Part shown: positions 1 through 59,358 of the stretch, piece after piece | Layout: each line of letters begins with the position of its first letter | How positions within the stretch are numbered: the first letter of the stretch is position 1 | NCBI RefSeq assembly: GCF_000336675.1 | Contig: NZ_AOMB01000005.1 | Coordinates: 157,920-221,919, forward strand | DNA length: 64,000 nucleotides | Direction of reading: 5' to 3' | Source of the DNA: Halococcus hamelinensis 100A6 | Lineage (GTDB): Archaea; Halobacteriota; Halobacteria; Halobacteriales; Halococcaceae | The notes under the pieces: generated by a model | Database searches by the model: none | Told to the model about the DNA's origin: nothing | What the model saw: only the letters and a program-made list of their open reading frames with translations | Made by a program: the position numbers and the translations under genes

Positions 1-290
1 GGCAAAATGTGGATCAAAAGCCTCCTCCTTCCCACCGGAAGAGCTTCGCTCTTCCGTGCCCTCGCTCGCCTCCGGCTCGCGAGAACGATGGTCAGTCGTC
101 GGCCCGCTCGCTCCCGCTGGTCGCTCGCGGTGCAATTACTGACTTCTCCGCCACCGCAACCGCCCCCGCCGAAGCCCTCGGCACGCTTCGCGTGCCTCGC
201 CCTTCATCCACCAGGCCCGCACCGCAACCGCCACCGCGCCGCCGCGCGGCGGCCGCACCGCCGCACCCGCCGCACCACGACACCAACCGG
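1..290 (+). repeat. Intergenic repeat family, copy A (left end cut by window)
   Basis: Copy of a 300-400 bp repeat seen six times in this window. Visible blocks in order: core GCAAAATGTGGATCAAAAGC (2-21); a perfect 9-bp hairpin CGGAAGAGC/GCTCTTCCG (36-56); two CGCTCGC-type direct repeats ending in GCGGTGCAA (about 107-136); GAAGCCCTC (171-179); a 7-bp hairpin GGCACGC/GCGTGCC (180-196); CGCCCTTCATCCACCAGG; then a run of ACCGC-like units. The T-rich head that opens the complete copies lies off the left edge. An open frame running through it from position 7 is not a credible gene. Confidence 0.85.
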
Positions 291-14670: not shown

Positions 14671-15067
14671 ATAGCGCGTTCTCTCGCCGTTTTCCGGCGC
14701 TTCGTGCGCCGCTTTTTCTCACGGTCAGTAGCAGAGGCCCCGTCCCATCGAATCCCATCGCTCGCGCGGCGGGCGGCCCGCCGCGGTCGCGGTGCGGGAG
14801 CGGCGGTGGCGGCGGTGGTGGCGGTGCGGTCCTGGCGGGTGAAGGGCGAGACCGCGAGCGGAGCGAGCGGTCGAGGGCTTCGGCGGAGGCGGTGTTGGGT
14901 GGTTGTGGAGCGGTTGCGGAAGGTGAGTAGTTGTACCGCGAGCGAACGGAGGGAGCGAGCGGGCCGAGGAACCCCCGAGCGGAGCGAGTGGGGTGACGAC
15001 GGCTTTTGATCCACATTTTGCCAGCGGAGCGAGCGCTAGCGAGCGAAGCGCAGCAAAAGGTGGGGGG
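14671..15067 (-). repeat. Intergenic repeat family, copy B (complete)
   Basis: Fills the whole gap between the convergent aldehyde dehydrogenase and SDR genes, oriented with the SDR gene and starting at its TAA stop (15068-15070). Blocks on the minus strand: CCCACCTTTTGCTGCG head, GCGCT/AGCGC inner stem, core GCAAAATGTGGATCAAAAGC (15002-15021), ACCCC/GGGGGT hairpin, CGCTCGC direct repeats ending GCGGTACAA, GAAGCCCTC, GACCGC/GCGGTC hairpin (14850-14872), then the CCAGGACCGCACCGCC tail. About 68 nt spanning the core are nearly identical to copy E, 39 kb away. Confidence 0.9.
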
Positions 15068-41304: not shown

Positions 41305-41640
41305 ACCCCCACTTTTTTGCTGCAGGGGGTTCCGCTCGCTGCGCTCGCTTCACCCCCGCTTGCAAAAACCTGGACTAAAAACCGCCGCTCGCTCCCGCCG
41401 GTCGCTCGCGGTACAACCACTAACCGCTCCCGCACCGTTCCCGCACTGAAACCGCTCCCGCACCGCGACCGCTGAAGCCCTCGGCACGCTCCGCGTGCCT
41501 CGCCCTTCGTCCTCCAGGACCGCACCGCCACCACCCCGCGGCCGCTGACCGCACCGCAGCGGCCACCGACCCGCTGCCCGAGAGGGGTTTCTCCACTGCC
41601 GGTTCACTACGGCGAGAAAATTCGACCTATCCTACAAATA
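41305..41640 (+). repeat. Intergenic repeat family, copy C (type II core)
   Basis: Begins at the npdG stop (TAA at 41302-41304), same strand. Head ACCCCCACTTTTTTGCTGC; long hairpin with arms TTTTTGC/GCAAAAA and GGGGGT/ACCCCC; type II core GCAAAAACCTGGACTAAAAA (from 41362); direct CGCTCGC units ending GCGGTACAA; GAAGCCCTC; 7-bp hairpin GGCACGC/GCGTGCC (41483-41499); CGCCCTTCGTCCTCCAGG; ACCGC-rich tail. Between the tail and the Rieske gene lie 45 bp with an inverted GGAAC/GTTCC (41651-41670). Confidence 0.87.
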
Positions 41641-43989: not shown

Positions 43990-44322
43990 GCTCATAAGTT
44001 CGGTCGGATCTCCCGGCGAAAGTTACGTGGATGCTGTGGCGCGCACTCGCGGTCGTGTGCGAACGAAGTGAGCACCGACCGCGAACACTGTGCGAGGGAT
44101 GAGCACCGGAGAGAGCGAGTGGAACGAGCGAACGAGGAGCGCAGTCGGCTGGGGAGGCGTGTGGCCGGTGCGGGGCGGTAGCAGTGCTGTGCGGGCTTGA
44201 TCAGTGGTTGTACCGTGAGCGAACTCAGAAGGAGTGAGCGAACGGCAGTTTTTAGTCCAGGTTTTTGCGACGAGTGGTTAGCGAGCGCAGCGAACTAACC
44301 CGAGTCGGAAAAAAGTGGGTGT
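43990..44322 (-). repeat. Intergenic repeat family, copy D (type II core, diverged)
   Basis: Begins at the TAA of the VIT1-like gene (44323-44325), same strand. Head ACACCCACTTTTTTCC, arms TTTTT/AAAAA with inner stem GGTTAG/CTAACC, type II core GCAAAAACCTGGACTAAAAA (ending near 44248), direct units CGTTCGCTC ... CGCTCACGGTACAACCACT. The distal half is diverged but keeps GAGCGAACGAG-like units (44100-44135). Fills the gap to the small membrane protein gene. Confidence 0.8.
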
Positions 44323-52470: not shown

Positions 52471-53375
52471 CCCGCGACCTCCAGTTTCGCACAGAAGAAG
52501 CCGCCCGTATCGTTGAGGTGGGGGTAGACCCGCTTCGCGTGCTCGACACCGGGGTCGAAGCGGTCGTCCTCCCACTCGGTGATCCCGGGCCTCGTTTCGA
52601 GCCCGCACTCGAACTCGACGAGCCGGCAGTCCTCGCTTTCGAGGACCGCGTCCAGCACCGCCTCGTTCTCCTCCGGCGCGAAGGTACACGTCGAGTAAAC
52701 CACTGTCCCCCCTGTTTTGGTCGCCTGGACCGCCCGCCGGAGGATAGACTTCTGGGTGCCGGCGATCGATTCGATCCGTTGGCGGGACCACTCGTCGAGC
52801 GCGTCGGGGTTCTTCCGGATGGTGCCCTCACACGAGCACGGCACGTCGACGAGCGCGCGGTCGAACGCCTCGAAATCGAACGGCGCGAGCGAGTAGTTGC
52901 CGGCGTCCCGGTTCGTGACGGCCATCGAGGTCACCCCCAGGCGTTCGGCGTTGAACCGGAGCGCCGAGAGCCGTCCCAGGTTGCGGTCGTTCGCGACCAC
53001 GAGCCCGCGGTCGTCGGCGAGCGCCGCGAGCTGGGTGGCCTTCCCGCCGGGGGCGGCACACGCCGCGAACACCCGTTCGCCCGGTTTCGGGTCACACACC
53101 GTCGCGGGCAGCGCCGAGACCTCCTCCTGGCCGTGGAGCCAGCCGTGGAACGCGCCCCACGTCCGACCGGTGGTGGTCCCGTCGAGCTTCACGAGCCCCG
53201 GCTGCCACTCGCACGACTCGAACTCGACACCCTCCTCGTCGAGTGCCTCCTTCGCGCGCTCGACGCTCGTCTTGATGGTGTTGACCCGGGCGACGTGGCC
53301 GAGCGGGCGCTCACAGGCCGCACGGAACGCCGCGAAGTCGTCGATGATGGGTTCGTATCGGTCGAGGGGGTCCAT
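52467..53375 (-). CDS. RsmB/NOP (NSUN) family RNA m5C methyltransferase
   Basis: 302 residues. SAM site VFAACAAPGGKATQLAAL, then VANDRN, DVPCSCEG with the product-release/catalytic Cys, and YSTCTFAPEENEAVLDAVL with the nucleophilic Cys; ends RVYPHLNDTGGFFCAKLEVAG. Methylates cytosine C5 in tRNA or rRNA. It lacks the C-terminal PUA-like domain of RsmF, which appears as the overlapping downstream gene. Short N-terminal extension (MDPLDRYEPIIDDF). Confidence 0.92.
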   Translation of the reverse strand: MDPLDRYEPIIDDFAAFRAACERPLGHVARVNTIKTSVERAKEALDEEGVEFESCEWQPGLVKLDGTTTGRTWGAFHGWLHGQEEVSALPATVCDPKPGERVFAACAAPGGKATQLAALADDRGLVVANDRNLGRLSALRFNAERLGVTSMAVTNRDAGNYSLAPFDFEAFDRALVDVPCSCEGTIRKNPDALDEWSRQRIESIAGTQKSILRRAVQATKTGGTVVYSTCTFAPEENEAVLDAVLESEDCRLVEFECGLETRPGITEWEDDRFDPGVEHAKRVYPHLNDTGGFFCAKLEVAG

Positions 53376-53456
53376 TGGTCGTCGTGGTCGGCGTGGTCGC
53401 TTGTCGATTTCGGACTCCGGGGAAGAGCTATGTCGGCGCGGCGAGTGGTTCTAGCT

Positions 53457-54191
53457 ATGGCTCGCATCGACGTCGTGGCCGACCTCGAACTCGACTCGCC
53501 GACGCTCGTCGAGGGGCTCCCCGGGGTCGGCCTCGTCGGGAAGACCGTCGCCGACCACCTCGTGAACGCCTTCGGGATGGAGTACTACGCGGGCGTCCAC
53601 TGCGACGGGGTCCCGCAGGTCGGGGTCTACCGCGGCGAGCGCTCCGCGCTCCGCCCGCCGGTCCGCCTCCACGCCGACCCCGACCGGAACCTCGTGGTGC
53701 TCCAGAGCGACGTCCCCGTCTCGCCCTCCGAGGCGACCGCCTTCGCCGCCTGCGTGACCGGCTGGCTCGACGACCACGACGTCACGCCGATCTACCTCTC
53801 CGGTCTGCCCGAACAGTCCGACGACCCGCGCGAACTCTACGGCGTCTCGACCGGCGACGGCGACCGCCTGCTCGACGATGCGGGGGTCGTCCCGCCCGCC
53901 GAGGGCGGCCTCGTCAGCGGCCCGACCGGCGCGCTGCTCTATCAGGCCGAGCGGACGGGGCTCGACAGCGTCGGCCTCATCGTCGAGACCGACCCGCGAT
54001 TCCCCGACCCCGAGGCCGCTCGGGTCGTCCTCGAACACGGGGTCGCACCGATCGCGGGTATCGAGGTCGAGACCCAGGACCTGACCGAGCGTGCCGAGGA
54101 GATCCGCGAGGCCCGCGAACGCCTCGCCGAACGGATGGCCGAGGCCGAGGACGAGAGTTCCCAGGCCGAGCCGCTCCGGATGTTCCAATAA
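53457..54191 (+). CDS. PAC2-family proteasome assembly chaperone-like protein
   Basis: 244 residues: DVVADLELDSPTLVEGLPGVGLVGKTVADHLVNAFGMEYYAG, LVVLQSDVPVSPSEATAFAACVTGWL, PIYLSGLPEQ, and GLVSGPTGALLYQAER. This is the archaeal PAC2/PbaB type; chaperones of proteasome assembly are the characterised members. A long charged helix ends the protein (LTERAEEIREARERLAERMAEAE). ATG 53457. Its TAA (54189-54191) opens repeat copy E. Confidence 0.88.
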   Translation: MARIDVVADLELDSPTLVEGLPGVGLVGKTVADHLVNAFGMEYYAGVHCDGVPQVGVYRGERSALRPPVRLHADPDRNLVVLQSDVPVSPSEATAFAACVTGWLDDHDVTPIYLSGLPEQSDDPRELYGVSTGDGDRLLDDAGVVPPAEGGLVSGPTGALLYQAERTGLDSVGLIVETDPRFPDPEAARVVLEHGVAPIAGIEVETQDLTERAEEIREARERLAERMAEAEDESSQAEPLRMFQ

Positions 54192-54471
54192 ACCCACCTT
54201 TTGCTGCGGTCGCTCGCTAGCGCTCGCTCCCTGGCAAAATGTGGATCAAAAGCCCACGTCACCCCACTCGCTCCGCTCGGGGGTTCCTCGGCCCGCTCAC
54301 TCGGCCTGCGGCCTCGTTCGCGGTACAATAACTTCCGCCACCGCACAGCACCGCTGAAGCCCTCGACCGCTCGCTTCGCTCGCGGCCTCGCCCTTCATCC
54401 ACCAGGACCGCACCGCGACCGCGACCGCGCTGCAACCGCAGCCGCGACCGCACCGCCGCCGCGATGGCGGC
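54192..54471 (+). repeat. Intergenic repeat family, copy E (complete)
   Basis: Fills the gap between convergent PAC2 and gyrA. Starts at the PAC2 stop, same strand: ACCCACCTTTTGCTGC head, CGCTAGCG palindrome, core GCAAAATGTGGATCAAAAGC (54234-54253), ACCCC/GGGGGT hairpin, CGCTCAC ... GTTCGCGGTACAATAACTT, GAAGCCCTCG, imperfect CCGC/GCGG hairpin (54367-54385), CGCCCTTCATCCACCAGG, ACCGC tail. Nearly identical to copy B around the core. On the gyrA strand the core reads as two T runs, so it may also serve gyrA's 3' end. Confidence 0.9.
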
Positions 54472-56913
54472 CTACTGGACTTCGGAGAGGACGTCGAGAC
54501 AGGCGACGTGGTCACCGTCGGCGAGTTGCATCACCCGGACGCCCTTCGTGTTCCGGCCGACCGCCGAGATGTCCTCGACGCGGGTTCGGATGATCTGGCC
54601 GCCCTGGCTCATCACCACGAGGTCGTCGTCGGCGGTGACGGCTTCGATCGCCGTCACGTCGCCGTTGCGGCCGCCGGTCTTGATGTCCTTCAATCCCTTG
54701 CCGTAGCGCGATTGGGTCCGGTACTTCTCCACCGGGGTGCGCTTGCCGTAGCCGTTCTCGGTGAGCGTGAGGAGGTCGTGACCCTCCCGCGCGACCACCA
54801 GCCCGGCCACTGCGTCGCCGTCGGTGAGTCTGATCGCGTTCACGCCGCGGGCGCTCCGGCCCATCTCGCGGGCCTCCTCCTTCGGGAATCGGATCGCCAT
54901 GCCCTGCTCGGTGGCGACCAGCAGGTCGCCCTCGTCGTCGGTGACGGTCACGTCCACGAGCTCGTCGCCGTCTTCGAGCCGGGTGGCGATCAGGCCGTTC
55001 GAGTGGATGTTCTCGAAGTCGGTGGCGCAGGTCCGCTTGATGTACCCCTCGCGCGTGACCATCGTGAGACACTGGTCCTCGTCGTCGAGGTCGTCGGTCG
55101 CCACCACGGCCGTGATGTCCTCGCCGTCGTCGAGGTCGACGAGGTTCACCGCGGACTTCCCGCGCGCCGTGCGACCCATCTCCGGCACCTCGTAGACCTT
55201 GAGCCGGTAGACGTAGCCCTGGTTCGTAAAGCACAGGAGATAATCGTGGGTGTTCGCCCGGAAGACCGCCGACACCCGGTCGCCCTCCTTGAGTTTCGTG
55301 CCGATGATCCCCTTGCCGCCGCGACCCTGGGCCTCGAAGTTCGCCGCCGGCATCCGCTTGATGTAGTCGTTCTGGGTCACCACTACGACGACCTCCTCCT
55401 CGGGGATGAGGTCCTCGCGGGTCACGGTGCCGTAGTCCTCGACGATACGCGTCCGGCGGTCGTCGGCGTACTCGGCTTTGACCTCCCGGAGCTCGTCGGT
55501 GATCACCCGGTCGAGCTCGGCGTCGCTCCCGAGGATGGTTTCGAGCCGGTCGATCTCCGTCTGGACGTCCTCGTACTCCGCCTCGATCTCCTCGACCTCG
55601 ATCGAGGTCAGGCTCCCGAGCTGCATCCGGACGATGTGGTCGGCCTGGCGCCCCGAGAGGTCGTAGGACTCCTGGAGGGCGGCCTTCGCCGCGCTTCGGT
55701 CCTCGGCGTCCCGGATTCGTTCGATGACGTCTTCTGCGTTTTCGAGCGCGGTCAGCCGGCCGTCGAGGATGTGGGCGCGGTCCTCGGACTCGGCGAGGTC
55801 GTGTTCGGTCCGCCGGCGGACCACCTCGCGGCGGTGGTCGAGGTAGTGGCCGAGGAGCTGTTTCAGGTCGAGGACCTGTGGCTCGCCGTCGACCAGCGCG
55901 AGGTTGATCACCCCGAAGGTCTTCTCGAAGCAGTGTTCGAGGAGCTGGTTCTCGACGACGTCCGTCAGGGCACCGCGTTTGAGGTCGATGACGATCCGGA
56001 TGCCGTCCCTGTCGGACTCGTCACGGAGGTCCGAAACCCCTTCGAGGGTGCCGTCGTTGACGAGGTCCGCGATGTGCTCGACGAGTTTGGCCTTGTTCTG
56101 CTGGTAGGGAAGTTCGGTGACGACGATCCGATCCCCGCTGGGGTTCTCCTCGATCTCGTAGCTCGCGCGCATCCGGACCCGGCCGCGGCCCGTGGTGTAC
56201 GCCGAGTGGATCGCCTCGCGGCCCACGATCTCCGCGCCGGTCGGGAAGTCGGGGCCCTTCACGTGCTCCATCAGGTCCTCGACGACACAGTTCGGGTTCT
56301 CGATGAGGTGGATCGTGGCGTCGATCACCTCCCCGAGGTTGTGCGGCGGGACGTTGGTGCTCATCCCGACCGCGATACCGGACGAACCGTTCACCAGAAG
56401 GTTCGGATAGGCCGCCGGGAGCACGTCCGGCTCTTCGAGGCGGTCGTCGTAGTTCGGGGCGAAGTCGATCGTGTCCTTCCCGATGTCCGAGAGGAGTTCC
56501 TCCGCGATCGGGCTCATCCGGGCTTCGGTGTAGCGCATCGCCGCGGGCGGGTCGCCGTCGACGGAGCCGAAGTTACCCTGGCCGTCGACGAGCGGCGCGC
56601 GCATCGAGAAGTCCTGGGCCATCCGCGCGAGCGCGTCGTAGATCGCCGAGTCGCCGTGGGGGTGGTAGTCGCCCATCGTGTCGCCCACGACGGAGGAGGA
56701 CTTCCGGTGGCCCGCACGGGAGGTGACGCCCTCCTCGTGCATCGCGAAGAGGATCCGACGGTGGACGGGTTTGAGGCCGTCGCGAACGTCGGGGAGCGCC
56801 CGACCCGCGATGACCGACATCGCGTAGTCGATGTAGGACTGCTCCATCTCGTCCTCGATACGGACCGAGTCCATCGACGCGTCGGGACCGCTTGGGGGAA
56901 TGTCAGAACTCAT
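54472..56913 (-). CDS. gyrA: DNA gyrase subunit A
   Basis: 813 residues. Breakage-reunion domain with [43 protein letters not shown] (quinolone region) and catalytic Tyr128 in [10 protein letters not shown]; long coiled-coil tower; six-bladed C-terminal wrapping domain with GyrA-box-like QGRGGKG (first Arg of canonical QRRGGKG replaced by Gly) and repeats such as [12 protein letters not shown]. Introduces negative supercoils with GyrB. ATG 56913. gyrB lies upstream on the same strand but a repeat copy of about 300 bp separates them. Confidence 0.97.
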
Positions 56914-56929
56914 GGATCAGGGGTGATGT

Positions 56930-57231
56930 CGTGGTGTCGATTGCCGGTCGGCCGCCGTGCGGTGCGGTCGCGGTACGGTCGCGGTACGGTTGCGGTGCGG
57001 TGCCTGGCGGATGAAGGGCGACGGCGCGAGTGAAACGAGCGCCGGAGGGCTTCTGCGGTGCTGTGCGGAGCGGTCGCGGTGTCGCCAGTGGTCCCACCGC
57101 GAGCGAACGGAGTGAGCGAGCGGGCGCGAGGGTGACCGAACGGGAACCCGACGCGCTTTTGATCCACATTTTGCCAGGGAGGCCGCGAAGCGGCCGACTG
57201 CAGCAAAAGGTGGGGCTGAAAGGTGGGTGCA
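56930..57231 (-). repeat. Intergenic repeat family, copy F, between gyrB and gyrA
   Basis: Begins at the gyrB TAA (57232-57234), same strand. Head CACCCACCTTT repeated as CCCCACCTTTTGCTGC; perfect GGCCGC-TTC-GCGGCC hairpin; core GCAAAATGTGGATCAAAAGC (57155-57174); CGCTCGCTCACTCCGTTCGC direct units; GAAGCCCTC-like block; 6-bp CGGCGC/GCGCCG hairpin (57022-57044); CGCCCTTCATCCGCCAGG; tail of ACCGTACCGCG units ending 16 bp before gyrA. Confidence 0.88.

Positions 57232-59358
<2,127 letters not shown>

Follow-up and report, generated by a model that had tools for sequence, protein, structure and literature searches.

The window analysed here, a stretch of 64,000 nucleotides from Halococcus hamelinensis 100A6, contains six copies (A to F) of an intergenic element, each of which we read directly from the sequence. 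The copies, and the parts of copy B, lie as follows:

1..290, + strand: copy A, core I at 2-21, tail A; incomplete, with its head before the window start
14671..15067, − strand: copy B, core I, tail A; occupies the whole gap from the sense stop codon to the convergent gene
15055..15063, − strand: head of copy B, clamp and T tract, CCACCTTTT
15002..15021, − strand: core I of copy B, GCAAAATGTGGATCAAAAGC
14814..14881, − strand: tail A of copy B, GAAGCCCTC, hairpin, CGCCCTTCACCC
41305..41640, + strand: copy C, core II, tail A; head 41309-41318, core 41363-41382
43990..44322, − strand: copy D, core II, alternative tail B; head 44318-44309, core 44267-44248
54192..54471, + strand: copy E, core I, tail A; head 54194-54202, core 54234-54253; occupies the gap between convergent genes
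56930..57231, − strand: copy F, core I, tail A; head 57213-57205, core 57174-57155

Core I is GCAAAATGTGGATCAAAAGC in copies A, B, E, and F, and core II is CAAAAACCTGGACTAAAAAC in copies C and D. The six places, the split into four core I and two core II copies, and the start of each of the five complete copies at a sense stop codon agree with an earlier note made from this DNA alone. That note also described a single shared set of ordered blocks; an ordered, multicopy element is indeed present, but copy D departs from the set in its tail, which lacks GAAGCCCTC...CGCCCTTCATCC and carries CACACGCCTCCCC...GCTCATCCCTCGCAC instead. This tail B follows both core types, core II in copy D and core I at another locus (L018). 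Copy A is severed by an assembly join, where a single N precedes window position 1 and ∼85 bp of flank are duplicated (locus L009, join at ∼2920). Other single-N contig joins with duplicated element sequence (L071, L293, and L062) likewise inflate the copy counts. In copy F, a partial second head, CCCACCTTTCAGC, separates the stop codon from the full head (57205-57231), and the same or a similar partial head directly precedes the full head at L004, L010, L020, L040, and L043.

The element is ∼250 to 400 bp long and follows a common plan of clamp, T4-6, hairpin, A4-6, clamp', A4-6, and hairpins. The clamp is the triplet before the T tract, which in nearly all parsed copies is complementary to a triplet in the spacer between the A tracts. 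Across copies this pair reads CCA/TGG, GTA/TAC, GAA/TTC, GCA/TGC, GGA/TCC, or CGA/TCG, showing that the clamp covaries across core types; given that a few registers were scanned to find these pairs, single cases are weak and the whole set is strong. The spacer is nearly constant at 8 nt, and the arrangement of two T tracts with a 7- to 8-nt spacer persists even though the spacer letters differ by core type, as they do at one orthologous locus. Read on the strand opposite the head-side reading direction (referred to as the folding strand here), the order is U4-6, N3, clamp, N2, U4-6, hairpin, A4-6, N, and clamp'.

The hairpins covary as well. In 40 distinct 27-nt hairpins behind the core, 97.5% of the cells are paired and 46 cells carry double changes, a covariation that 0 of 500 shuffles reach and that collapses in slid controls; the selection of this set by length and motif favors pairing, but not double changes. 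Together with the covarying clamp, this bears out the suggestion of the earlier note that the element is structured. Over 135 elements, the tandem mismatches on the folding strand are GA/GA in 456 cases and TC/TC in 2 (total, 571), while the triloops on this strand are GNA in 282 cases versus TNC in 40; these counts include related copies and are not independent events. Elements from other genera show GA/GA in 29 of 33 cases. The strand rule is present in all four gene contexts, whatever the direction of the neighboring genes, and loses none of its strength in contexts lacking an annotated gene transcribed from the folding strand (++ and −+), while control intergenic DNA has no such asymmetry (GA/GA 30, TC/TC 25). 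The presence of the asymmetry in every context suggests that one strand is selected to fold single-stranded, as RNA or DNA. A generic terminator and sigma-70 scan was uninformative; it reported no terminator at the copies, because stems interrupted by GA/GA fall outside its criteria.

Covariation and strand asymmetry also rule out a microsatellite origin of the CGCTCGC arms. The broader idea that the blocks are GC-rich background or a low-complexity (CGCTCGCT)n sequence without function, is prompted by the resemblance of the arms to direct CGCTCGC repeats. This idea is already refuted, given that, besides the hairpin covariation and the asymmetry that control DNA lacks, the relaxed core pattern CAAAAN{2,3}TGGNNNAAAA matches the genome 76 times and its reversed version 0 times, and several complete haloarchaeal genomes have zero matches to the covariance model described below.

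A folding strand acting as RNA could make the element a structured RNA or a 3′-stability element, with a U.A-U triple helix protecting the 3′ end, or else an antisense RNA. The single-strand folding signature in every context fits such a role, as does the finding that, outside Halococcus, the two A tracts are associated in length (Fisher p = 0.006, 31 copies, which are related and not independent), as base triples would need. However, this length association is small, and drift of tract lengths could produce it. Moreover, by eye we saw no promoter-like AT-rich box on the folding strand of the GC-rich tail, and Rfam 15 gave no match to the window at the gathering threshold and none up to an E value of 1 in 54150-57300. 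The loops, too, resemble those of DNA more than those of RNA, with many GNA triloops but few GNRA tetraloops (7 of 60 tetraloops); both GNA loops and Py-GA-Pu tandem mismatches form stable structures in DNA. A role as RNA thus appears unlikely to us.

The source genome holds ∼70 loci with the element, ∼4 of the 76 core matches being doublets around single Ns, i.e., assembly duplicates. BLAST searches of the source genome returned 59 matches for copy B and 49 for copy C, and the fetched loci yielded 67 unique core-bearing copies (core I, 40; core II, 27). Core matches are found in all 10 Halococcus genomes (19 to 76 each), while other members of the family have 1 to 10. The tail A pattern is limited to Halococcus and one other family member (11 of 293 genomes of the order), and of 155 Halobacteriales genomes, 20 contain a pattern of head plus core II, for which the control gave zero matches. 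Core II is letter-identical across families, while the hairpins are variable. The earlier note had proposed a covariance-model scan as a check; our model R1 is based on 28 type II copies taken from several genera and, at E values up to 1e-4 (which are rough), matches 100 of the 117 Halobacteriales genomes scanned, representing 41 of 48 genera. The other 17 genomes, several complete GC-rich haloarchaea among them, gave no match. Six distant genera have loci with the same plan in different letters. Beyond these genomes, phage records contained no match to the element, plasmids contained three weak matches, all to the head part, and viral contigs contained a single exact core match in an unrelated, AT-richer context, which looks like a chance match. 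With no match in Rfam and no published description in the open-access literature, we found no named family for the element, in line with the earlier note, which gave none. In one distant genus, three related copies stand in tandem with a period of ∼151 bp (L345, L350, and L358; G065:C1:919886-920286).

To describe the position of the element relative to genes, we used 124 heads from two species (G000 and the sister species G006) and genes called by a simple codon-usage script, so that some starts are approximate. The majority of the heads (89/124) face the 3′ end of a gene, at a median of 4 nt after the stop codon. The remaining 35 (∼28%) are turned toward the 5′ side of a gene that has the opposite orientation, at a median of 41 nt and mostly 38 to 47 nt before the start; these heads lie just outside the BRE/TATA region, with intervening TATA-like boxes at the spacing of leaderless promoters. 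At least four heads follow tRNA genes (tRNA-Leu, -Met, -Ala, and -Pro), with the same 3- to 4-nt distance as behind stop codons. The expectation in the earlier note that the copies would always lie 3′ of genes thus does not extend to the whole genome, and its description as a 3′-UTR or terminator element is right in tying the element to gene ends with terminator-like features, but not in making it purely a 3′ UTR. Gaps with an element are convergent in 47 cases, tandem in 59, and divergent in 18, compared with 30, 74, and 95 among gaps without one. This enrichment of convergent and depletion of divergent gaps is significant in each species alone (p = 5e-4 in G000 and p = 3e-7 in G006), although the two are not independent samples. 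Between tandem genes, the head points toward the 3′ end in 42 of 59 cases. A T4-6 tract lies within ∼12 nt of most sense stops and provides the coding-strand T tract of an archaeal T-stretch terminator, while among other gene 3′ ends only 8% have T5 or more within 80 nt. In the same two species, TAA and TAG account for 76 of the 89 stop codons that precede heads but for 53 of 134 elsewhere, with TGA making up the rest (13 of 89 versus 81 of 134).

To follow the loci over time, we mapped them to the sister species. Both flanks were found for 50 of 70 core loci, most of them 89 to 97% identical, and 45 of these 50 loci carry a core in the same orientation, three having switched from type I to type II. 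At the other five the exact core is absent, which does not imply an empty site; two of them (copies B and F) hold altered versions of the element, and none of the 50 mapped loci showed a clean empty site. Given the 45 retained cores, recent transposition is rejected, and recent mobility, one reading of the earlier note's mobile or copied element, is not supported. At the locus of copy F, tail-A-like sequence lies behind the same gene in its own and all eight other Halococcus species read (among G000-G009), while the head differs between species. The hairpins, by contrast, are hardly more similar between orthologous copies than between random pairs (head hairpins, 0.66 and 0.71 versus 0.63 and 0.65; tail hairpins, 0.51 and 0.50 versus 0.48 and 0.45). 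Several head alleles are common to different species at different loci, and long cassettes turn up repeatedly, in either orientation and in more than one hairpin slot. The family is therefore not recently mobile but internally restless, with hairpins being replaced on a frozen scaffold; we infer that exchange of hairpins is the process behind this turnover. At L290 and L055, hairpin tips look inverted relative to the orthologous copies in G006 (GAA versus TTC loop), suggesting inversion through the palindrome.

For deeper comparisons, we matched the head-side genes of 29 copies in other families to those of Halococcus. A zinc-ribbon gene resembling transcription factor S is a shared host in the same orientation in two further families, and other same-orientation hosts include one gene with 82% identity over 210 residues and one with 44% over 196. 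tRNA-Ala(CGC) and a tRNA-Pro also recur as neighbors of the element across families. Five or more shared hosts among 29 have a p value of about 7e-4 at a chance of 2.5% each, this rate being an estimate. Vertical inheritance is the simplest reading of these shared hosts, although repeated acquisition at the same genes may also have produced them.

These results bear on the idea of a REP- or PATE-like element that spreads, or formerly spread, as folded single-stranded DNA and has no present host function. High copy number, palindromes, modularity, DNA-stable loops and mismatches, and the recurrence of cassettes in different slots and both orientations all suit it. REPs are 20 to 40 bp long, have a GTAG or CGTC tag, and often come with a RAYT transposase (PMC2817692, PMC3733652). 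Like the present element, REPs and BIMEs are high-copy, palindromic, modular, and extragenic, often near 3′ ends, and termination is one of their proposed roles (PMC2817692, PMC3733652); the element differs in its length of ∼250 to 400 bp and in positions kept between species. In the alignment and listings we inspected, the hairpin feet, with TTGTACC or GGTTCAC as conserved letters on the folding strand, have no GTAG or CGTC tag, and the insertion differences expected of REPs between close relatives are replaced by cores kept at 45 of 50 mapped loci. In PATEs of Haloquadratum walsbyi, the palindromes lie near the termini and resemble IS605 ends, and insertions are specific to strains (PMC3119063). 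PATEs and other small repeats of that species share with our element the presence of palindromes and the lack of a transposase and of terminal inverted repeats, and some are inserted inside the palindromes of others (PMC3119063). Here, loci are common to species and the internal hairpins turn over instead, with no PATE-type species-specific insertion opposite a clean empty site among the 50 loci. The missing tag and insertion differences set the element apart from REPs, and the missing empty sites set it apart from PATEs. The spreading idea, already weakened by the shared loci, also sits badly with host genes common to different families and with the precise stop codon and promoter junctions, which random insertion fails to explain; we consider it quite unlikely.

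We favor, at a probability of about one-half, a cis-acting polar transcription boundary, i.e., a terminator and insulator that probably stops stray transcription, judging from anatomy and position. The edge position, T tracts on both strands, and a hairpin before a double T tract point this way, as does termination in Haloferax volcanii, where termination reaches 95% with T stretches and 59% with one hairpin (PMC7237163). The head would point at a gene, from behind its stop codon or tRNA 3′ end or from just outside its promoter. On the gene-sense strand, its T tract would end either the transcript of the gene or antisense transcription leaving the promoter. An RNA polymerase arriving from the tail side would meet the GC-rich hairpins, then T4-6, the 8-nt spacer, and a second T4-6, and would be stopped before running antisense into the gene or through the promoter, stray antisense transcription being the assumed target. 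Clamp and T/A tracts would close a stem around the head hairpin. Selection would keep the scaffold at fixed loci, while hairpins, which need only stay foldable, may swap between dispersed copies by ectopic conversion or hairpin-primed template switching. A simple terminator serving the gene on the tail side is insufficient, given that the strand rule is as strong without annotated transcription on the folding strand; this independence of context suggests that the target is tail-side transcription in general, not one neighboring gene. Archaeal T-stretch terminators also have T tracts at intergenic gene 3′ ends and hairpins near some termination sites (PMC7237163). Our element, in contrast, has a long modular scaffold with a covarying clamp and several strand-polar hairpins, bears T tracts on both strands, has dozens of near-identical cores per genome, and is used at promoters too.

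One point against the polar boundary is that the core spacer is exactly conserved among copies of each type, which exceeds what T tracts need. The element could instead be a DNA site bound by a protein (a nucleoid organizer, topoisomerase, or replication factor) that lies at gene edges through exclusion from coding DNA. A core II that is identical across families while hairpins vary freely, the conserved spacing, and the asymmetry of the element are in line with this. A single protein would hardly tolerate, however, the spacer differing by type at one orthologous locus, and exclusion from genes predicts neither the 3- to 4-nt precision nor the convergent enrichment, making such a site improbable in our view. 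A more elaborate form of the polar boundary, in which a class-wide element insulates genes in a polar manner through a folding strand that forms a U.A-U or T.A-T triple helix, clamped by the covarying stem and flanked by tandem sheared G.A hairpins, and exchanges hairpin cassettes between loci by a dedicated process, is a tentative and rather unlikely proposal.

Class-wide spread, the covarying clamp, the strand-polar GA/GNA hairpins, and wholesale hairpin replacement are new relative to the earlier note. What is known of archaeal termination mainly concerns short T stretches; if the polar boundary is correct, the element would be a first candidate archaeal transcription insulator, present in most Halobacteriales genomes tested. 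A frozen scaffold with shuffled hairpins at 92 to 96% flank identity offers a system for watching hairpin exchange, and the contrast between the two separates the parts of a terminator-like element whose sequence matters from those where shape alone counts.

The DNA left of copy E (window 53300-54480) is located elsewhere in most other Halococcus genomes, so that copy E marks a synteny break. In addition, the window contains diverged direct repeats at 19378-20259 and 22551-23618, which are 71 to 78% identical at an offset of ∼3.2 to 3.4 kb and are probably duplicated genes.
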